Positions 7,711-58,200 of a stretch of DNA of 64,000 bases are shown piece by piece. Source of the DNA: Amycolatopsis circi. Its GTDB lineage: Bacteria > Actinomycetota > Actinomycetes > Mycobacteriales > Pseudonocardiaceae. The notes below the pieces were generated by a model, which worked only from the letters and a program-made list of their open reading frames with translations, had not been told where the DNA came from and ran no database searches. The stretch is from assembly GCF_003385235.1 (NCBI RefSeq), contig NZ_PQIA01000031.1:1-64000 (forward strand). The letters are read 5' to 3'. Numbering within the stretch: position 1 is the stretch's first letter; each line of letters begins with the position of its first letter. Both the position numbers and the translations under genes were made by a program.

Positions 7711-10236
7711 ATGCCCATCGCCCTGTCCGAGGAACACCGCGACTTGGCCGCTTCTGCCGCCGGGTGGGCTGCCCGGCATGCACCGGTCGCGGAGACCCGT
7801 GCTGGACTAGGCGGCCAGCCGGGTTCTGGGAAGGTCCTGTCCGAGGAGCGTGGCGACCTGGCCGCTTCCGCCGCCCGGAGTGCACCGGTCGCGGGGACTC
7901 GTGCTGGACTCGGTGACGAGCCTGGGACGGTCTCTTCCGAGGAGCGCCGCGACTTGGCCGCTTCCGCTGCCTGGCGTGCGCCGATCGCCGAGACCCGTGC
8001 CGGGCTAGACAGCCAGCCGGGTTCTGGGAAGGTCCTGTCCGACGAGCACGGCGATCTGGCCGAGTCTGCGGTCCGACATGCGCCGATTGTCGAGCCAGGC
8101 GATCAGCCGGGCTTTGGCCCAGCCCCGGCTGAGGAACGCCGCGACTCGGCCGAGTCTGCGGTCCGGCACGGGTCGGCCGTCGAGACTCGCGCCGAACCTG
8201 GGCGGTCGGACTTCTGGAAGGCCCTCACCGAACAAGGCTGGCACTCCCTGCACCTGCCGGAGTCCGTCGGGGGCCAAGGCGCTGGGCTGCTCGAACTCGC
8301 CGTGGTAACCGAGCAGTTCGGTCGTCATCTGGTGCCCGGTCCGTTCCTGCCGACTGTCACCGCCAGCGCCGTCCTCGCCGCAGCCGAACCGTCCGAACCG
8401 TCCGAACCGTCCGAACCGACCGAATCGACCGGACCGGCGGAAGCGTTGGCCGCGTTCGCCGCCGGAGCGACCGGAGCTGTCGTACTTGACGGCCTCCGTG
8501 CGACCAACACCGCCGAAGGTTGGTATATCAACGGCACCAGCTGTCCGGCACTCGGGCTCGCAGACGCGGAGATCGTGGTCGTCCGCGCTCACCAGATCTG
8601 GTTCGTGCTACGGCCAGAGCCAAGCCAGCTGATCCCAGTCGAAGCCGTTGATCTGACCAGATCCGCGGCGCGCCTTAAACTGGAGAACTTCCTGGTATCT
8701 CAGCACAACCTCATTGAGATCAGTCCAGAGCGCGCGGAGCTGGCCCTTGCAGTCCCAGCGGCGGCGGAAGCGGCTGGACTGTGTAGCTGGGCACTGGACT
8801 GCGCCGTCGACCACGCTCGCACCCGCGTCCAGTTCGGCCGTCCGATCGGTTCCTTCCAAGCCGTCCAGCACCAAGCTGCGGGAATCCTCCTGTACCGGGA
8901 GATCGCCACGGCGGCAGCCTGGGACGCAGCCCGCGCCGAGCAGCATTCCCTTGCGCAGCAGGCACTTGCCGCCGCCCAGGCCCGGCACGCCGCGCTCCCC
9001 GCCGCGGTGGACGCATCGGTGGCCTGTGTTCGGCTCCTCGGCGCGATCGGCTTCACCTGGGAACACGACGCGCATCTCTACTGGCGACGCGCCGTCGCGC
9101 TGTCCGGATCCCTCGGCCGACCAGCCGCCCGAAACCTCGGCGAACGCGCCCGGACCATCACCCGCGACCTGACCCTCGCGAGGCCCGACGACTGTCCGGA
9201 ACTGCGAAGCCAGATCGCGCCCGTCCTCGACCGGATGGCCACCGAACCGTCCGTCCGCGTGCTCGCCGACGCCGGTCTAGCCGCCCCGCATTACCCGAAG
9301 CCGTACGGCCTGGACGCCGGACCGCTCGAACAAGCCGTCATCGCCGAGGAGTTCGAGCGACGCGGAATTCCCCAGCCCACTACGGTAATCGGCGAATGGG
9401 TCCTGCCGACCCTGCTCGTGCACGGCTCCCCGGAACAGCGCGAGCGATTCGTCATGCCAACGCTGCGCGGAGACGTCCGCTGGTGTCAGCTGTTCAGCGA
9501 ACCAGGAGCGGGTTCCGACCTCGCCTCGCTCACCACTCGAGCGACCAAAGTGGACGGTGGCTGGCGGATCAACGGACAGAAGGTCTGGACGTCGCTGGCC
9601 CACGAAGCGCACTGGGGCGTCTGCCTCGCCCGGACCGATCCGGACGCGCCGCGCCATCGGGGAATTTCGTACTTCCTCGTCGACCTGGCCGCGGAAGGCG
9701 TCACCGTCCGGCCGATCAAGCAGGCCACCGGACGCTCGGAGTTCAACGAGGTCTTCCTGGACGACGTCTTCGTCCCGGACCGCGACCTGGTCGGCGAGCC
9801 GAACAGCGGCTGGCGGCTCGCGACGACCACTCTGGCCAACGAGCGGCACAACATGGGCGCGACGCTCGCGCACGGTTCGTCGGACCGGATCCGCCAGTTG
9901 CTCCGCGAGAATCCGGACGATCCCGAAGCATTGTCCGCGCTCGGCCGGTGCGTGTCGCGGGAACTCACGCTTGCGACGCTCGGCCTTCGCGGCGTGCTGG
10001 CCCGGCTCGCCGGACTGGACCTGGGAGCTGAGGTCAGCGTGCGGAAGGTGTTCAGCGCGCTGGCCCAGCAGGAGGGGTCGCGCGAGGTGATCGCTCTGCT
10101 CGGCCCCGATTCCGCGAGCGCGGAGGACGGGCACGTCGTCGACCATCTCGGCCTGCCCGCCGTGCTCTTCGGCGGCGGGACGATCGAAATCCAGCTCACT
10201 GTCATCGCTCAACGCGTCTTGGGACTGCCCCGGTGA
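7711..10236 (+). CDS. Double-domain acyl-CoA dehydrogenase, FadE34/ChsE3-like, with expanded N terminus
   Basis: This 841-aa protein has two acyl-CoA dehydrogenase units in one chain, as in mycobacterial FadE34 (about 711 aa). Unit one runs from DFWKALTEQGWHSLHLPE (about residue 168) to the helical VQFGRPIGSFQAVQHQAAG. Unit two, from about residue 505, has the FAD/substrate segments LFSEPGAGSDLASL and WTSLAHEAHWG and ends IAQRVLGLPR. FadE34 oxidises steroid side-chain CoA esters. The extra length is a fivefold imperfect repeat of the N-terminal helix sequence (residues 5-166), followed by an SEPSEPSEPTES microrepeat near 226. Start ATG at 7711 is 3 bp after the thiolase stop. Confidence 0.83.
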   Translation: MPIALSEEHRDLAASAAGWAARHAPVAETRAGLGGQPGSGKVLSEERGDLAASAARSAPVAGTRAGLGDEPGTVSSEERRDLAASAAWRAPIAETRAGLDSQPGSGKVLSDEHGDLAESAVRHAPIVEPGDQPGFGPAPAEERRDSAESAVRHGSAVETRAEPGRSDFWKALTEQGWHSLHLPESVGGQGAGLLELAVVTEQFGRHLVPGPFLPTVTASAVLAAAEPSEPSEPSEPTESTGPAEALAAFAAGATGAVVLDGLRATNTAEGWYINGTSCPALGLADAEIVVVRAHQIWFVLRPEPSQLIPVEAVDLTRSAARLKLENFLVSQHNLIEISPERAELALAVPAAAEAAGLCSWALDCAVDHARTRVQFGRPIGSFQAVQHQAAGILLYREIATAAAWDAARAEQHSLAQQALAAAQARHAALPAAVDASVACVRLLGAIGFTWEHDAHLYWRRAVALSGSLGRPAARNLGERARTITRDLTLARPDDCPELRSQIAPVLDRMATEPSVRVLADAGLAAPHYPKPYGLDAGPLEQAVIAEEFERRGIPQPTTVIGEWVLPTLLVHGSPEQRERFVMPTLRGDVRWCQLFSEPGAGSDLASLTTRATKVDGGWRINGQKVWTSLAHEAHWGVCLARTDPDAPRHRGISYFLVDLAAEGVTVRPIKQATGRSEFNEVFLDDVFVPDRDLVGEPNSGWRLATTTLANERHNMGATLAHGSSDRIRQLLRENPDDPEALSALGRCVSRELTLATLGLRGVLARLAGLDLGAEVSVRKVFSALAQQEGSREVIALLGPDSASAEDGHVVDHLGLPAVLFGGGTIEIQLTVIAQRVLGLPR
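7723..8208 (+). repeat. Fivefold in-frame tandem repeat in the FadE34-like coding sequence
   Basis: Five units of roughly 85-115 bp each encode a variant of LSEEHRDLAASAA followed by HAPVAETRAGL and a linker QPGSGKV. All are in frame and diverged in sequence. Unit one corresponds to the normal N terminus of the family, so units two to five are added copies. Unit lengths differ by multiples of three bases, which indicates that reading was maintained. Confidence 0.85.
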
Positions 10237-34554: not shown

Positions 34555-34798
34555 CTACGGGATCCTCTGTAGGCATTTGTGCAGGCTGACGGCGGCGAGG
34601 GGGTGGTCAGCGTCGTATTGACGGAAGGTGCTGACCGGCTCGAAATCCAGCCGGGCGGCGAGCTTCAGCGAGCATTTGTTGGCTGTCTGCGTCGCCACGA
34701 GCACCGGCTGATCGGGAAGTTCCTCAGCCGGGCGGCGCTGCAGCTCCATGGTGCCGAGGAGCCGGTCGGTGGTCTGGTCGGCGATGATGCGAGTCCCC
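34555..34798 (-). pseudogene. C-terminal remnant of a GNAT acetyltransferase
   Basis: Read on the lower strand, this piece gives TRIIADQTTDRLLGTMELQ, then QPVLVATQTANKCSLKLAARLDFEPV and YDADHPLAAVSLHK before a stop. The TQTANxxSLxLAARLxF block is the acetyl-CoA-binding end of a GNAT protein. No start or N-terminal half remains. Its 5' portion (34724-34798) is overlapped in another frame by the tail of the SARP gene. A deletion probably joined the two genes. Confidence 0.65.
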
Positions 34799-37700
34799 GC
34801 AGGCCACTCTTACCGCATCCTCAACGGACAACCGGGCACCTTGCTCGAACACGCGGGCGAAGCCGGAGCCGAGAACTCCTTGGGCCGCTTCGGTAATCCG
34901 GTCCACGTCGCCTCGCTCGGCGGCAGGGAGCGGGGCATTGACACTGCGCCGCGCGGCGTCGGCGGCACCGAGCAGCAGTGCGGCGGATTGCGGAGCTGCC
35001 GCGCCCGCCAGACCTTCCAATGACAGCGCGAAAGCCCGCGGCTCATCGAGCATCCGCGCGTACTCCAAGCCCTGCAGGTGATAAGTCTTCGCCTGGACCG
35101 CATCGCCCCGGAGTTCGGCGACGAAACCGAGTTCCGCGTACAGCAGGTGGTCGCCTGCGGTCGAGGACAGGCCGCGGTACTCGTCGCGGATGTGGGTCAG
35201 GTGGTGTTCGGCGGCGTCGAGGTCGCCGGAGCGGCGGGCACCCAGCGCCAGGCCCATTTCGGCGTGGATCCGGCCGTACGTGTAGCCGTGGTCGGCTGCG
35301 ATTCGGAGGGCTTGTTCGTGTAGGTCGCGGGCTCGTGGCCAGTCGCGTTCGAGCAAGGCCAGACGGCCCAGGCCGGACAACCTCGCCGAGACTTCCGCTT
35401 GCAAGTCCAGTTCGCGCGCGATGGCGAGTCCTTCGTGCTGGCGGCGCGCGGCTTCGGCGTAGTCGCCCTTGATTTCGGCGAGCGCGGCCAGCGGCGGGAT
35501 GGTTTGCATTTCACCCCACCGGTCACCGAGGCGGCGGAAGAGTTCGGCGCTGCGCAGACCGTCCCGGCCGAGGCCGGCGAGATCTCCGCGGACCAGGCTG
35601 AGCATGGCCCGCAGGCCCAGCGCGGCGGCGACGCCCCATTCGTCGTCTCCGGCGGTCGCGAGGGCGCGCGCGTTCACCTCGTGACTGGCGGCGAGGTCGC
35701 CGACGCTGAACAGGCTGTAGGCGCGCAGCCACAATGCACGGGCGCTGTCCGGGGAATCGGGTGGGGCTTGTTCGCCGGTCAGGAGGGCGAACGATCCATT
35801 GAGGACAGTGAGGTCCGGATCCGGTGCGGCGACAAGCAAAACTGCCGACAGCATCCGGCGGCCTTCGGTGAGTCTGCCGCGCAGCAGCCACCACCAGGAC
35901 AATGCTGTCGCTAGGCGCACCGCCTCGCTCGGTGCTCGGCAGATCGCCTCGTCCAGGGCTGCGCGCAGATTGCCCGCTTCGACGTCCAGCCGAGTGAGCC
36001 AAGCCCGCTGCTCGGTACCGTGCAATTGGGCGCTCTCGGCGATTTCCAGGTAATGGCGCAGGTGCCGTGCGCGCGTGGCGGCCGGATCCGCCAGCCGTTC
36101 GACGGCATAGGCGGCGACGGATTCCAGCAGCCGGTACCGGATCCCGGCCGGTCCGTTCGTGACGGCCACCAGCGACCGGTCGACTAGTCGGAGCACCAGA
36201 TCGAGTACGTCGCCGTCTCCCGCGCACACGGCTTCGGCGGCGGCGAGATCGAAACTGTCACGGTGGACGGCCAGTCTGCTTAGGACAGTCCGTTCCGGTT
36301 CGCTGAGCAGTTCCCAGCTCCAGTCAAGTACGGCGCGCAATGTTTGCTGCCGCGCGGGAGCGCCGCGCGAGCCTCGGGTCAGGACGGCGAACCGGTCGTT
36401 GAGCCGGGCCGCCAGTTCCCGCACGCCCAAACCGCGCACGCGGGTGGCCGCGAGTTCCAGCGCGAGAGGGAGACCGTCCAGACGGCGGCAGATCTCGGTG
36501 ATCGTGTCGAGATCGCCCGCGAAATCCGGGGCGGACGCGATGGCGCGTTCGGTGAACAACCGCACGGCGTCCGCGGGTGGCAGGGGTTCCACTGCGAACA
36601 CGGTTTCGCCCGGCAGTCCGAGCGGTTCCTGGCTGGTGGTGAGGATGCGCAGGTCACGGGTGTTGCGGAGGAGCGATTCGACGAGTTCGGCGACGGCTTC
36701 GACGACGTGTTCGCAGTTGTCCAGGACGAGCAGCATCCGCCGGTCGCGCAGGGCGGTGGCGAGTCGCTGGGCAGGGGAGGCGGTGTCGATCGAGTCGCGG
36801 ATCCCGAGTACGGCGGCGACTGTTTCGGCGAGGTCGGCGGCGGTGCCGCGGACGCCCGCGAGTTCGACCAGCCAGCAGCCGTCTCGAAACTCGTCTCGTG
36901 AGTGTTTATCCCGGTTAGAACCGGGATAGGCACTCACGAGTTCCACCGCCAGCCGTGACTTGCCGACCCCGCCAGGCCCGGTCAGCGTCACCAGCCTGCT
37001 TGATAGCCCGGCAAGCTGCGCGAGCGCCTCCTCCCGGCCGATCAACGGCGTCAGCGGGCGGGGGAAGTTGCCGCGCGGCTCAGCAGCCAGTCCGGAGTCC
37101 TGCCGGAGCAGCGATTCGTACAGCGCGCGCAGGTCCGGGCTCGGGTCGACGCCCAGTTCCTCGGCGAGCCGGGTGCGGAGATCTGTATAGGAGGCAACGG
37201 CTTCGCTCTGCCGCCCGCGCGAATACAGCGCGCGCATCTGTGCTGCCCGCAAGCCTTCTCGGAGCGGATGCCGCGCGATGACGTCCGCCAAATCGTCCGC
37301 GGCGGAGTAGTCGCCCGCTTCGACCTGGGCTTTGGCTTGTTCTTCCACTGCGGCCAGCCGTAACTCGGACAGCCGATGTGCGGCCGATCGCGCGAACTCT
37401 TCGTCAGCGAAGTCGGCGAACGCCTCGCCGCGCCACAGGTGCAAGGCTTCGGCGAAGCGCGTCGCTCGGGCTCGGGGATCCGCCGTCGCGCGAGCCTGGA
37501 TGACGAGATCGCGGAACTGCGCGGCGTCGGAGTGCTCGATCCGCAGCCGGTAGCCCGCCGGTTGCCGCTCGACGCCGTCTCGGCCGACGATCCGGCGCAG
37601 TTGCGAGACCTTGGCCTGCAGCGCACCGGCCGGTTTGCCTGGCGGGTGGTCGCCCCAGAGATCCTGGATGAGCCGGTCCGCGGTGACTGGTCCGCCGTCG

Positions 37701-37828
37701 TGCGCCAGCAGCGTCGCGAGCAGCGCCCGCACCTTCGCCTCGGGCACGGTGACCGGCGCGCCGGTCTCGTCCCACACTGCGAGCGGGCCGAGTATCCCGA
37801 ACCGCAGGCGTGGCTCCTGCTGGGTCAT
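34724..37828 (-). CDS. SARP-family regulator: BTAD + ATPase + TPR (AfsR-like)
   Basis: The 1034-aa protein has an OmpR-type winged helix (RLRFGILGPLAVWDE to about residue 95), a bacterial transcriptional activator domain (to about 245), a STAND ATPase with Walker A LTGPGGVGKSRLAVEL near 283 and Walker B MLLVLDNCEHVVEA near 370, and TPR-like repeats to the end. Such regulators activate secondary-metabolite genes. Two oddities occur: residues 297-312 are encoded by a dispersed palindrome, and the last 25 residues (after LSVEDAVRVA) read into the GNAT remnant. The start ATG at 37828 overlaps the stop of a leader peptide that copies the gene's own N terminus. Confidence 0.88.
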   Translation of the reverse strand: MTQQEPRLRFGILGPLAVWDETGAPVTVPEAKVRALLATLLAHDGGPVTADRLIQDLWGDHPPGKPAGALQAKVSQLRRIVGRDGVERQPAGYRLRIEHSDAAQFRDLVIQARATADPRARATRFAEALHLWRGEAFADFADEEFARSAAHRLSELRLAAVEEQAKAQVEAGDYSAADDLADVIARHPLREGLRAAQMRALYSRGRQSEAVASYTDLRTRLAEELGVDPSPDLRALYESLLRQDSGLAAEPRGNFPRPLTPLIGREEALAQLAGLSSRLVTLTGPGGVGKSRLAVELVSAYPGSNRDKHSRDEFRDGCWLVELAGVRGTAADLAETVAAVLGIRDSIDTASPAQRLATALRDRRMLLVLDNCEHVVEAVAELVESLLRNTRDLRILTTSQEPLGLPGETVFAVEPLPPADAVRLFTERAIASAPDFAGDLDTITEICRRLDGLPLALELAATRVRGLGVRELAARLNDRFAVLTRGSRGAPARQQTLRAVLDWSWELLSEPERTVLSRLAVHRDSFDLAAAEAVCAGDGDVLDLVLRLVDRSLVAVTNGPAGIRYRLLESVAAYAVERLADPAATRARHLRHYLEIAESAQLHGTEQRAWLTRLDVEAGNLRAALDEAICRAPSEAVRLATALSWWWLLRGRLTEGRRMLSAVLLVAAPDPDLTVLNGSFALLTGEQAPPDSPDSARALWLRAYSLFSVGDLAASHEVNARALATAGDDEWGVAAALGLRAMLSLVRGDLAGLGRDGLRSAELFRRLGDRWGEMQTIPPLAALAEIKGDYAEAARRQHEGLAIARELDLQAEVSARLSGLGRLALLERDWPRARDLHEQALRIAADHGYTYGRIHAEMGLALGARRSGDLDAAEHHLTHIRDEYRGLSSTAGDHLLYAELGFVAELRGDAVQAKTYHLQGLEYARMLDEPRAFALSLEGLAGAAAPQSAALLLGAADAARRSVNAPLPAAERGDVDRITEAAQGVLGSGFARVFEQGARLSVEDAVRVACGDSHHRRPDHRPAPRHHGAAAPPG
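36895..36940. repeat. Dispersed palindromic element, copy 4, inside the SARP coding sequence
   Basis: The arms are CTCGTGAGTG/CACTCACGAG outside and ATCCCGGTT/AACCGGGAT inside, with three unpaired bases between and AG at the centre. It encodes LVSAYPGSNRDKHSR on the lower strand without a stop or frameshift, directly after the Walker A helix. It is the only coding member of the family in this window. Confidence 0.85.
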
Positions 37829-37932
37829 CTGGTTACCGCCAGGGTCTTTACCTGGAGCAGGACGAGGGTCCCGTCCCATGCTGCGAGCGGTCCGAGCATC
37901 CCGAACCGCAGGCGTGGCTCCTGCTGCGTCAT
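37825..37932 (-). CDS. Leader peptide 3 (35 aa), overlapping the SARP start
   Basis: ATG at 37932 begins MTQQEPRLRFGMLGPLAAWD, nearly identical to the SARP N terminus, then leaves the SARP frame as GTLVLLQVKTLAVTR. Its TGA overlaps the SARP ATG (ATGA). There is no strong ribosome site before the SARP ATG, so re-initiation after this peptide is the simplest route to SARP translation. Confidence 0.6.
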   Translation of the reverse strand: MTQQEPRLRFGMLGPLAAWDGTLVLLQVKTLAVTR

Positions 37933-38036
37933 CTGGGTACCGCCAGGGTCTTTACGCGGAGCAGGACGAGTGTCCCGTCCCACATCGCGAGCGGGCCGAG
38001 TGTCCCGAACTGCAGGCGTGGTTCCGGTTGTGCCAT
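37929..38036 (-). CDS. Leader peptide 2 (35 aa)
   Basis: ATG at 38036 begins MAQPEPRLQFGTLGPLAMWD, then GTLVLLRVKTLAVPR and a TGA that overlaps the start of leader 3. It is diverged from leader 3 at about eight positions but keeps exactly the same length and overlap, 104 bp upstream. Confidence 0.6.
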   Translation of the reverse strand: MAQPEPRLQFGTLGPLAMWDGTLVLLRVKTLAVPR

Positions 38037-38119
38037 CAGGTCGCCACCAGGGCCATTACACGGAGCAGCGCGCTTGTCTCGTCCCACGCCGCGAGCGGGC
38101 CGAGCATCCCGAACCGCAT
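38036..38119 (-). CDS. Leader peptide 1 (27 aa), probable entry point of the chain
   Basis: ATG at 38119 (MRFGMLGPLAAWDETSALLR) follows ACGGGAGCAAGGCG, the only good ribosome site in the chain. Its TGA shares one base with the ATG of leader 2. The sequence again copies the SARP winged-helix start. Confidence 0.6.
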   Translation of the reverse strand: MRFGMLGPLAAWDETSALLRVMALVAT

Positions 38120-38135
38120 CGCCTTGCTCCCGTCG

Positions 38136-38157
38136 CACCGTCAGGTCACCGTCAGGT
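38136..38157. promoter_or_regulatory. Perfect 11-bp tandem direct repeat, SARP-type operator
   Basis: CACCGTCAGGT occurs twice head to tail with an 11-bp period. SARP proteins bind heptamer direct repeats spaced 11 or 22 bp, usually about 8 bp upstream of the -10 box. TAAGCAT lies 5 bases after the repeat, 30 bp before the MFS start. It sits between the SARP leader chain and the divergent exporter gene, so it may serve both. Confidence 0.6.
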
Positions 38158-38199
38158 GATCGTAAGCATTCCCGAAGGCCAGGTCCGCACAGTGGGCGC

Positions 38200-39372
38200 A
38201 TGAGCCCCACCTCAGTCGCCGTCGCTCCCACCCAGCGGCTTCCGCTTTTCGCGCTGTTGTCCCTCGCCACCGCAGTGTTCATCACCAGCCTCACGGAGAC
38301 GCTGCCCGCCGGGTTGCTGCCCGCGATGAGCGGCTCGCTCGGCGTCAGCGAATCCGCGACCGGCCAGACCGTCACGGTCTACGCGCTGGGCACCGTTCTG
38401 ACCGCGATCCCGCTGTCCACCATCACCGCTGGCTGGCGACGCAAACGGTTGCTCCTGGCCGCGATGGCCGGATTCGCCGTGGCCAACACCGTCACCGCCG
38501 TGTCGTCGGAGTACAGCCTGACGATGGTCGCGCGCTTCATCGCAGGCGTCGCGGCTGGTCTCGCGTGGGCACTGCTGGCCGGTTATGCCCGACGCCTGGT
38601 CGCTCCTGCACAGCAGGGTCGTGCCATGGCAATTGCCATGGCTGGTATCCCAGTCGCGCTGTGCCTGGGCGTCCCTGCCGGAACCTTCGTCGGCCAGCTC
38701 ACCGGCTGGCGTACTGCGTTCCTCGCCATGACCGTGCTCACCCTGGTGCTGCTGGCGTGGATCGGCGCGGCGGTGCCCGATTTCCCCGGTCAGGCTGGGG
38801 GAGCGCGTCCGAAGATGCTGCCTGCGCTGCGCATCCCGGGAGTTGCGGCGGTCCTGTTCGTCACGCTGGTGTTCGTGCTGGCGCACACCGTGCTGTACGC
38901 CTACCTCGCCACCTTCCTCACCGGCCTCGGCATGGGCGGCGACACCGACCTGGTCCTGCTGACCTTCGGCCTGGCCTCGATCGCGAGCATCTGGATCGTC
39001 GGCGCGCAGATCCACCGGCGGCTGCGGTTGCTGATGATCGTCAGCGCGCTGCTGGTCGCGGTCGCCGCGGCGCTGCTCGCGACCGAACCCGCGCTCGTTT
39101 ACCTGGCCGCCGCGCTGTGGGGGCTCGGCTGGGGCGGGGTGCCGACCTTGCTGCAGACCGCGGCCGGGGACGCGGGCGGCGAGTCCGCGGACACGGTCCA
39201 AGCGATGCTCGTGACGCTGTGGAACGCCGCGATGGCGGCCGGCGGTGTCGTCGGCGGCGTACTGCTCGACGTGGCAGGCAGCGGTTCCTTCCCGTGGACC
39301 GTGCTGGTCTTGATGGCACCGGTGCTGGCGGTCGTCCTGCTTGCGCGTCGACGCGGCTTCCCTGCCGCTTGA
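38200..39372 (+). CDS. MFS transporter, 12-helix drug/sugar efflux type
   Basis: The 390-aa protein has about 12 membrane helices. The motif A region is degenerate (STITAGWRRKRLLLA), and the fifth helix has the drug/proton antiporter motif C-like AGIPVALCLGVPAGTFVGQLTGWR. It resembles the chloramphenicol/arabinose efflux branch. It is divergent from the SARP gene, with the direct-repeat operator between. ATG at 38200 follows a weak site (AGTGGGCGC). Export of a SARP-controlled product is a reasonable guess. Confidence 0.85.
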   Translation: MSPTSVAVAPTQRLPLFALLSLATAVFITSLTETLPAGLLPAMSGSLGVSESATGQTVTVYALGTVLTAIPLSTITAGWRRKRLLLAAMAGFAVANTVTAVSSEYSLTMVARFIAGVAAGLAWALLAGYARRLVAPAQQGRAMAIAMAGIPVALCLGVPAGTFVGQLTGWRTAFLAMTVLTLVLLAWIGAAVPDFPGQAGGARPKMLPALRIPGVAAVLFVTLVFVLAHTVLYAYLATFLTGLGMGGDTDLVLLTFGLASIASIWIVGAQIHRRLRLLMIVSALLVAVAAALLATEPALVYLAAALWGLGWGGVPTLLQTAAGDAGGESADTVQAMLVTLWNAAMAAGGVVGGVLLDVAGSGSFPWTVLVLMAPVLAVVLLARRRGFPAA

Positions 39373-40244: not shown

Positions 40245-40660
40245 GCACAGCCTGCGGGGGCGAGTCTTCTTGCCACAGATCTGAGTTGACCGCTGCGTGG
40301 CGATGGCAGAGCTAGCCACGGCAGGGCTCGGCTGCCTACCGGTCACGTGGAACCGAGCGCGAGGCGGCGGTGAAGCTTCTCGCCGCCGAGCTGGGCCGAT
40401 CGCAGGCTGCCACTGGCGATGGCTAGTCACGGCAGTGGTTTGGCTGTTTCCCGCCGCGGGCCTGCCGCGCGGAACCGGACTCGTCGTCTGAGCTGGCTAC
40501 AGCCTGCCGTGGCAATGGCTAGCCACGGCAGGGGGCTGGCTATCCCGCCGCAGGCCTGACACGGAACCGAACTCGTCGCCTGAGCTGAAGCACAACCTGC
40601 CACTGGCAGTGCTAGTCACAGCAGGGATCTGGCTGTTTCCCGCTGCGGGCCCGAATGTTG
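40206..40660 (+). repeat. Degenerate tandem repeats copying the 3' end of the XRE gene
   Basis: GAGGCGGCGGTGAAGCT plus CTCGCC occurs in the gene end (40206) and again at 40360. Further units start near 40490 and 40580 with CTGAGCTG, each containing GGC(A/G)ATGGCTAG(C/T)CACGGCAG, then a CTGGCTGTTTCCCGC block and a GCGGGCC or GCAGGCC block. Units are roughly 90-150 bp. No real gene lies between 40245 and 40665. Confidence 0.7.
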
Positions 40661-52134: not shown

Positions 52135-52941
52135 CCGCGTCGCTTTCCCCCGGGCGACGCGCCCCTGCCGGCGGCCGCCGGTGCACGCGCGCGCGAAAGT
52201 GCGCTCGGGCACCGCACGCGCGCCCCGGCGGCCGGCGTGCGGAGCGGACGGGCCTGCTTTGTGGGAACACGGGCCCGTTTGCGCCGCACGCCTTGCCGCG
52301 AGGGCGAGAGCATTGGCGCGGAGTGTTTCGCCTGAGTGCGAGCCCGTTTGCGCCGCGCGCCGAAGACCGCTGAGGCGGAGTGTTTCGCACGGGTGCGGGC
52401 TCGTTTGCGCCGCACGTCTTGCCGTGCGGACGAGAGCAATGACGCAGACCGCTTCGCGCGAGTGCGGCAGGTTTGCGCTGCGCACCTTTGCCGTGAGGGT
52501 GGATCACTGTTTCGCGGGAGCGCGGGCAGGGTTGAGCCGCGCGCCTCCTGCGAGGGCGGAGGACGCGGAGGCAGACTGTTTCGCGTGAGTGAGACAGGTT
52601 TGTGCCGCGCGCTTTGCCATGAGGGCGAGAGCGCTGACGCGGACTGTTTCGCGGAAGTGCAGGCAAGTCCGTGCCGCCCGCTAGCCTTGAGGACCGAGAA
52701 CGCTAGCCCTGCACGCGGGCTACCCATAGCGAGCAGGCGGAGATTCGAGCGCAAGTTCGCTGGCTGTCTAGCCGGTGCGTTTCGCGAGTAGAGTCGAAAA
52801 CGCGCTGGGAACCGACGGTGACGCGGCGAAGTCTGTTCGCCGCCGTCGTTGTGCTCGGCCGCGTGCGAATGGGGGCGGTTCGATGGAATACCGCGAAGAA
52901 ATCCCGCGGCAGCGCGGCGCGTTCGCGGGAATTGCGCAGTG
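52135..52941 (+). repeat. Gene-free region with about seven degenerate 57-75 bp tandem repeats
   Basis: From about 52258 to 52690 the unit GTGCGGGCTCGTTTGCGCCG, then CACGTCTTGCCGTG, GACGAGAGC and GACTGTTTCGCG repeats imperfectly, with starts near 52260, 52335, 52392, 52460, 52518, 52586 and 52654. Units lose or gain bases without regard to codon phase, so the repeat is non-coding. Frames on either strand are repeat artefacts. From 52691 to 52941 nothing clear is present. Confidence 0.7.
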
Positions 52942-56913: not shown

Positions 56914-57861
56914 GTGAGCGAGCACAACACGGGGCACGGCCACGGACACGGGGTGTCGGCGGGCGCGGACCGCAAGTGGCTGGTGCGGGCGCTGGTGCTG
57001 ATCGTCGGGTTCATGGCCGTCGAGCTGGTCGTCGGCCTGATCGCCGGGTCGCTCGCGCTGATCACCGACGCGGGCCACATGCTGACCGACGCCGCGTCGA
57101 TCGTGCTCGCGCTCGTCGCGATCCGGCTGGCCGCGCGTCCGGCGAAGGGTGGGTTCACCTACGGGCTCAAACGCGCGGAGATCCTGTCCGCGCAGGCCAA
57201 CGGGATCACCTTGCTGCTGCTGACCGCGTGGTTCCTCTACGAGGCGGTGACCCGGCTGATCGATCCGCCGCAGGTGCAGGGCGCGCTCGTGCTGGTGACG
57301 GCGCTGGTGGGGATCGTCGTGAACGTCGCGGCGAGCTGGTGCATCAGCCGGGCGAACCGGTCGAGCCTGAACGTCGAGGGCGCGTTCCAGCACATCCTCA
57401 ACGACCTCTACGCGTTCATCGCGACCGCGGTGGCCGGCGCGATCGTGTGGTGGACCGGCTTCGCCCGCGCCGACGCGATCGCCGCGCTGGCCGCCGCCGC
57501 GTTGATGGCGAAGGCGGGCTGGGGGCTGGTCCGCGAGTCCGGCCGGATCTTCCTGGAGGCGGCGCCTGCGGGAATCGATCCGGAGGCGGTGGGCGAGCAG
57601 GTGGCGTCGGTGCCGGACGTGGTGCAGGTGCACGACCTGCACATCTGGCAGATCACCTCGGGCGAGCCTGCGCTGTCTGCGCACGTGCTCGTGCGGCCCG
57701 CGGCGGATTGCCACGCGGTGCGCGCGGGGATCGAGGAGATCATGCGGTCCCGGCACCGGCTCGATCACACGACGCTGCAGGTGGACCACGTCGACGAGGA
57801 CCGGATCGAGCATTGCGAACGGTCGCACGGGCCGACTTACCGGTTCACTGGGCGGAGTTGA
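56914..57861 (+). CDS. Cation diffusion facilitator (CDF) metal exporter
   Basis: The 315-aa protein has a His-rich N terminus (HNTGHGHGHG), six membrane helices with the zinc-site residues in LITDAGHMLTDAASI (helix II) and HILNDLYAFIATAV (helix V), and a cytoplasmic C-terminal domain (VVQVHDLHIWQITSGEPALSAHVLV). It exports Zn, Co or similar ions with proton exchange. GTG at 56914 follows GGTGCGG. The upstream ATGTATGCACGTTTCACTATATGT stretch at 56876-56898 may be its promoter and regulator site. Its 3' end is copied in downstream repeats. Confidence 0.9.
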   Translation: MSEHNTGHGHGHGVSAGADRKWLVRALVLIVGFMAVELVVGLIAGSLALITDAGHMLTDAASIVLALVAIRLAARPAKGGFTYGLKRAEILSAQANGITLLLLTAWFLYEAVTRLIDPPQVQGALVLVTALVGIVVNVAASWCISRANRSSLNVEGAFQHILNDLYAFIATAVAGAIVWWTGFARADAIAALAAAALMAKAGWGLVRESGRIFLEAAPAGIDPEAVGEQVASVPDVVQVHDLHIWQITSGEPALSAHVLVRPAADCHAVRAGIEEIMRSRHRLDHTTLQVDHVDEDRIEHCERSHGPTYRFTGRS

Positions 57862-58200
57862 CTGCGCGAAGGGGCGGAGCTGGATGTGATCCGGCTTGGC
57901 TGGGGTCATGCCGAGGGGGCTGGGCCGAAGGCTGCGGTGTCCGCAGGGGCCGATTTGCCGGTTGACTGCGCGAAGGGGCGGAGGTGGAGGCGATCCGGCT
58001 TGGTTGGGGTCGCGCCGAGGGGGCCGGGCCGAAACCTGCGGCGTCCGCAGGGGCCGATCTGCCGCTTCGCCGGGCGGAGTTGACTGCGCGAAGGGAAGGA
58101 CCGCATGCGATCCGGTGTGGAGTGGCGCTGCAGGCCGAACACGCCGACGAGCGCCGGATGAGCACTGCGAGCGCTGAACCCGCGGAAAGAAAGGGACTGC
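57829..58200 (+). repeat. Tandem repeats copying the 3' end of the CDF gene
   Basis: Three units start at about 57829 (inside the gene), 57945 and 58050. Each has GGGCCGA(C/T), a GCGGAGTTGACTGCGCGAAGG or shorter block, ATCCGGCTTGG(C/T)TGGGGTC and a CTGCGG-GTCCGCA end; the period is about 105-117 bp. The start of the next gene is also partly copied: ATGCGATCCG occurs at 58104 and at its true start 58201. No gene lies between 57862 and 58200. Confidence 0.75.

Follow-up and report, generated by a model that had tools for sequence, protein, structure and literature searches.

The window analysed here is a stretch of 64,000 nucleotides of Amycolatopsis circi DNA (contig NZ_PQIA01000031.1, positions 1 to 64,000) that carries, on its minus strand, the gene for a large regulator of the SARP family (34724..37828; 1034 amino acids), and across and in front of the start of this gene lies a tandem array of a 104-bp unit. 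Tandem Repeats Finder (TRF) places the array at 37763..38118 on the minus strand, with a period of 104, 3.4 copies, 83% matches and 0% indels, and a repeat search returned three 147-nt copies, spaced 104 and 104 nt apart, with 88% and 82% identity to the reference copy. Three short open reading frames (ORFs) on the same strand run through the array to the SARP gene: ORF1 (38036..38119; 27 amino acids, MRFGMLGPLAAWDETSALLRVMALVAT), ORF2 (37929..38036; 35 amino acids) and ORF3 (37825..37932; 35 amino acids). The start of ORF2 overlaps the stop of ORF1 in TGATG, the start of ORF3 overlaps the stop of ORF2 in ATGA, and the stop of ORF3 overlaps the SARP ATG at 37828 in a further ATGA; thus each boundary has an ATGA or TGATG stop–start overlap of the sort used in termination-reinitiation. 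A first-pass annotation made from the sequence alone had described self-copied, overlapping ORFs with a 104-bp period before the SARP gene, and this description holds, with all of its ORF coordinates correct. Because the copies differ from one another, all lie within one 76.7-kb contig and occupy one place in the source genome (where a search at E ≤ 0.001 showed no sign of the unit as a dispersed element), an assembly artefact, a doubt which that annotation had itself raised, is unlikely.

The SARP start was compared with the corresponding loci of eight relatives (L112–L119), taken from a set with one genome per species, among whose nearest members are Amycolatopsis sp. cg13, A. rubida, A. dendrobii and A. 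orientalis DSM 43388. In all eight the SARP gene begins with ATG or GTG followed by CGG TT[CA] GG and is preceded by a ribosome site; this start coincides with the start of ORF1 in the window. The array is absent from all eight relatives examined and was found in just 1 of 390 family genomes when two candidates were scored per genome (27 others gave one match each, and none of the other 389 had the unit as an array). From position 37800 (SARP base 29) to position 38199, at the start of the adjoining transporter gene, the distance is 399 bp in the window and 87, 88, 91, 86 and 86 bp in the five closest relatives; the window spacing is thus 308–313 bp longer, and it exceeds that of the closest relative, L112, by exactly 312 bp, or 3 × 104. 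Since the relatives' SARP genes start at the ORF1 site without an array, and the nearest is 312 bp shorter, the comparison identifies ORF1 as the ancestral start of the SARP gene, whose present start is three units farther downstream. Nothing was thus inserted before the SARP start; rather, the gene was displaced from it by three units. We therefore favour the reading that the array is a lineage-specific tandem duplication of the start region of the SARP gene itself, and we hold it, together with the mode of translation set out below, with about as much belief as doubt.

Alignment with the relatives gives the order of parts within the unit: about 35 nt of decayed operator and 5′ untranslated region (5′UTR), for which L116 is the best match, then the start-codon position, the first ~15 SARP codons, and ~24 nt more. 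The unit had been taken to be the 5′ end of the SARP gene, which it does hold, but the operator/5′UTR in front of that end belongs to it as well. When the unit heads were compared with the upstream regions of three relatives, 5 of 9 pairs were matched by none of 500 mononucleotide shuffles, and the remaining four had P values of 0.012–0.030 against the same number of shuffles; for the ~24-nt middle of the unit, 12 comparisons with relatives gave one notable result, an 11-nt match to L115 coding DNA (P 0.008). Copies 2–4 have CTG at the position of the relatives' ATG or GTG start (at 37805..37807 on the minus strand in the SARP gene itself), and they open at an ATG within the old operator/5′UTR. 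This same ATG is CTGATGACG in L115 and L116, where it is in frame with SARP, and P0002 has MTRRERRMRFG there. The stop–start overlap of each unit falls within a stretch whose homologue in the relatives' operator/5′UTR is CTGATG(A), and since CTGATGA can be read as a stop or as a start according to frame, the move of the start to this ATG would account both for the overlaps and for the extra MTQQEPRL at the head of the SARP protein. The term "leader peptides", under which the short ORFs were first described, is misleading, as ORF1 marks the ancestral SARP start site and ORF2 and ORF3 are diverged copies of ORF1. Units 2 and 3 are identical at 87 of 104 positions; this divergence of ~16% amounts to about half of the synonymous divergence (dS 0.37) from the nearest relative, so the array probably did not arise recently.

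The SARP protein has a BTAD domain (PF03704, 8.7e-34) and a nucleotide-binding domain above cut-off (NB-ARC 9.9e-8, AAA_22 6.5e-9), while a winged-helix match falls just short of the threshold (PF00486, 26.1 bits, cut-off 26.2) and a TPR_12 match is weak (25.1 bits vs a cut-off of 30.1); its 90% protein cluster has one member. The ORF is intact in an alignment with five relatives, and at codons that are invariant in the other five sequences its private changes are 45 silent and 1 replacing. The same count gave 43.5 silent to 11.5 replacing in L120 and 30 to 9 in L123 (first codon and last 30 columns excluded; of the five relatives these two were counted, the other three were not), and ratios of replacing to silent divergence (dN/dS) are 0.145–0.177 between the window gene and the five relatives and 0.173–0.242 among the relatives. 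The SARP gene thus appears to be under strong purifying selection, for which reason it is probably still made, and since the array probably did not form recently, the gene seems to have remained of use after the duplication. A dead SARP gene is unsupported by the intact ORF and the near absence of replacing private changes.

How would ribosomes reach the start of this displaced gene? Calculated Shine–Dalgarno (SD) duplex energies are −8.4 kcal/mol for ORF1, whose GGGAG (38127..38131, minus strand) is the ancestral SARP ribosome site, −6.0 for ORF2, −6.2 for ORF3, −6.2 for the SARP ATG, −6.6 for the CTG at 37807 and −3.2 for an upstream in-frame ATG at 37879, compared with −7.7 to −11.6 at the starts of the eight relatives and 10% and 25% points of −7.3 and −5.8 in random stretches. 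ORF1 therefore has the best SD sequence among the candidate starts, and the earlier claim of a good ribosome site at the first ORF alone is broadly correct. Because the best SD sequence stands before ORF1 and a termination-reinitiation overlap lies at every boundary, a hand-over of ribosomes along the overlaps is our leading explanation of SARP synthesis, although, joined as it is to the duplication reading, we regard it as evenly balanced between right and wrong. Transcription would come from the ancestral promoter, ribosomes would load at the ancestral ribosome site of ORF1 and stop after 27 codons, and a fraction of them would re-initiate at TGATG, then at the first ATGA and then at the second, and so arrive at the SARP ATG at 37828. 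The peptides themselves would have no role; the overlaps would let the gene survive the insertion, probably with lower output, and the array would be tolerated rather than built for control.

Several observations weigh against the hand-over. Opening energies, computed over −18..+12 of each start with 300 random sites as reference, are 19.4, 13.4, 9.5, 9.9 and 18.0 kcal/mol for ORF1, ORF2, ORF3, the SARP ATG and the SARP CTG, respectively (relatives, 8.2–18.0; random 10% point, 11.3), so the SARP ATG, with its weak SD sequence, lies in an open stretch and the ORF1 start is the more structured site. The overlaps would have been automatic once one duplication had the right frame, a chance of about 1 in 3, and for two leaders that differ from the inferred ancestor by 13 and 4 changes, neutral change would keep the start, the openness and the NTGA end with P 0.27, which leaves the leader frames without demonstrable selection. 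As for the peptides themselves, measured against the relatives' consensus the changed codons are replacing in 4 of 4, 8 of 8 and 7 of 10 cases in leader copies 1, 2 and 3 (small numbers) and in 2 of 4 in the SARP copy, where one is the start codon, while the genes of L112–L116 have 2/2, 1/2, 1/4, 1/6 and 1/2; pairwise ratios of replacing to silent differences (pN/pS), from few sites, are 0.45, 0.62 and 1.58 between leaders and 0.22, 0.40 and 0.70 between leaders and SARP. Conserved leader peptides are thus unsupported, the changed leader codons being mainly replacing.

Since the SARP ATG is open and the ORF1 start is not, direct starting is a serious rival to the hand-over: ribosomes would begin at the ATG at 37828, or at the CTG at 37807 behind GGAG, and the array would be a transcribed but idle spacer. 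The lack of demonstrable selection on the leader frames agrees with this, as do the weak SD-like GGCGGT (37835..37840, minus strand; −6.2 kcal/mol) 6 nt before the ATG and the GGAG 6 nt before the CTG. However, energies of −6.0 to −6.6 place these sites only in about the best quarter of random stretches and short of all eight relatives, and the CTG lies in a structured site (18.0) and is a poor start codon. A Streptomyces gene with a GTC start and repressed translation has been reported (PMC5472188) and is relevant to the case against the CTG. We consider direct starting a real but rather doubtful possibility, and it may be that both it and the hand-over are in operation. Less probable, and in our opinion unlikely, is an internal promoter, by which a copy of the unit would give a short or leaderless SARP mRNA: the unit includes decayed operator sequence, and in mycobacteria a region of mycobacterial interspersed repetitive units (MIRUs) between senX3 and regX3 is reported to drive senX3-independent expression of regX3 (PMC4213456), but no sigma-70-like site was found in 37700–38300 by a scan that covers actinobacterial promoters poorly, and TACGAT, the putative −10 of the ancestral promoter, is not retained in the units as aligned by eye.

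We give little credence to the idea of a copy-number rheostat, in which each 104-bp unit, as a complete stop–start cistron, would multiply SARP output by one re-initiation efficiency and so allow heritable, reversible tuning; if it were true, recombination could change the number of units and always leave SARP in frame. That the array has switched SARP off, or nearly so, and that decay is in progress is very improbable; CTG does replace ATG or GTG at the homologous start codon and the gene is severed from its own ribosome site, but the private changes in SARP are almost all silent although the array does not look recent. An attenuator, with the leader peptides or an RNA structure as sensor, would make sense of three short ORFs in the 5′ region, but the changed leader codons are mostly replacing (a small sample, in which both changed codons of the genuine L112 gene are replacing as well), the peptides contain no run of one regulatory amino acid, and the 401-nt leader folds no better than shuffled versions of it (z 0.32; 59 of 100 fold as well). 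We reject the RNA form on this last ground, and think attenuation of any kind scarcely credible.

The row of overlapping ORFs is uncommon under a strict definition. In the window and 60 sampled 20-kb stretches (2.53 Mb of strand), chains with ATG starts only, ORFs of at least 20 amino acids and all except the last of at most 60 amino acids gave 14 rows of at least three links, and the only two rows of four links both belong to this locus, taken from either of two ORF1 ATGs. With looser rules (GTG allowed, 12 amino acids) chains of at least four links are present in 18 of the 300 random 2-kb stretches sampled and in 3 of 23 array neighbourhoods, a count in which this locus scored just three links because SARP ran off the stretch. 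Among 80 further SARP loci, some with little upstream DNA, TRF found one array with a period of at least 40 within 600 bp upstream; it ends 375 bp before the SARP match and has periods of 54 and 81. Arrays with a period of 60–160 bp and a score of at least 140 number 6 in 400 kb of the source genome, 7 in 400 kb of Amycolatopsis sp. cg13 and 5 in 400 kb of five other relatives, or 12–18 per Mb in these three samples of the genus, and 5 in 962 kb of SARP loci, mostly from other actinobacteria and not a position-matched set. Because similar arrays are common in the genus and one lies 2.3 kb away, the SARP array seems to have arisen as a side effect of a general tendency to duplicate, and the locus points to a genus with frequent ~100-bp tandem duplications.

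The window itself has 5 such arrays in 64 kb, several times the rate of the other genus samples. The array nearest to that of SARP, at 40407..40634 (93 bp × 2.4), is flanked by genes for an MmyB-like regulator and for an MFS_1 transporter; of four relatives compared there, only A. dendrobii matches close on both sides and it lacks ~340 bp, so this array would be another lineage-specific duplication, at least relative to A. dendrobii. Further arrays are at 57857..58064 (104 × 2.0), 7768..8062 (96 × 3.0) and 52552..52704 (68 × 2.2).

Upstream of ORF1 the divergent promoter region has a perfect 11-bp direct repeat (38136..38157; 22 bp, CACCGTCAGGT twice on the plus strand) that is SARP-operator-like, an 11-bp direct repeat being the definition of a SARP operator (PMC10936776), and is a possible candidate operator of SARP or another regulator. 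Its first heptamer, CTGACGG on the minus strand, is retained in 8 of 8 relatives, the second, 11 bp on, has 5–7 of 7 matches in seven of them (the spacing is 11 bp in seven relatives and 12 bp in L114), and the repeat is partly retained in each 104-bp unit. Beyond it is the divergent MFS_1 transporter gene (38200..39372, plus strand), whose 5′ end likewise adjoins the start of SARP in each of the five closest relatives. At its other end the SARP protein has a tail of ~24 residues (GDSHHRRPDHRPAPRHHGAAAPPG; 34724..34800) not present in the five aligned relatives, perhaps from loss of an old stop codon. The first-pass annotation called SARP an antibiotic regulator; by its domains it is a large SARP, but any tie to antibiotic production is at most putative, as none of the 19 window ORFs scanned, which are part of the total, is a core biosynthetic enzyme, and they include an NAD(P) transhydrogenase, dehydrogenases, MmyB-like regulators and transporters.

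We found no account of a gene start duplicated in tandem in this way with a few literature queries on tandem duplication, for which subscription papers lay mostly outside the material searched. The locus is a natural experiment in which tandem duplication of a gene's start separated the gene, apparently still under purifying selection, from its ribosome site. If coupling carries SARP, stop–start overlaps would buffer genes against insertions, in this case with no mobile element of the MIRU kind, and the array would provide a natural series in which serial re-initiation could be measured in an actinobacterium. MIRUs are dispersed in the genome and appear mobile, whereas the SARP unit occurs at a single locus and duplicates the start region of the SARP gene itself. 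They resemble it in that several units stand ahead of a regulator, regX3 being preceded, according to strain, by two units of 77 bp and one of 53 bp or by three of 77 bp (PMC4213456), and the ribosome passage along overlaps proposed for mycobacterial MIRUs is what we favour here; the two ATGA junctions have the −4 nt start overlap of MIRUs, and the first junction, TGATG, is −1 nt. The Escherichia coli iraD leader likewise has three translated ORFs, of which the last has a stop that overlaps the iraD start and is coupled to iraD, but two of its ORFs are reported to have no effect on iraD, CsrA exerts control there, and the abstract of that study does not describe the ORFs as repeats, as the SARP leaders are (PMC5574718). 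ATGA and TGATG gene overlaps have been studied as sites of termination-reinitiation, the reported cases lying between real genes (PMC6728339); the junctions before SARP are the same, but they are serial and lie between duplicated fragments of a gene start.
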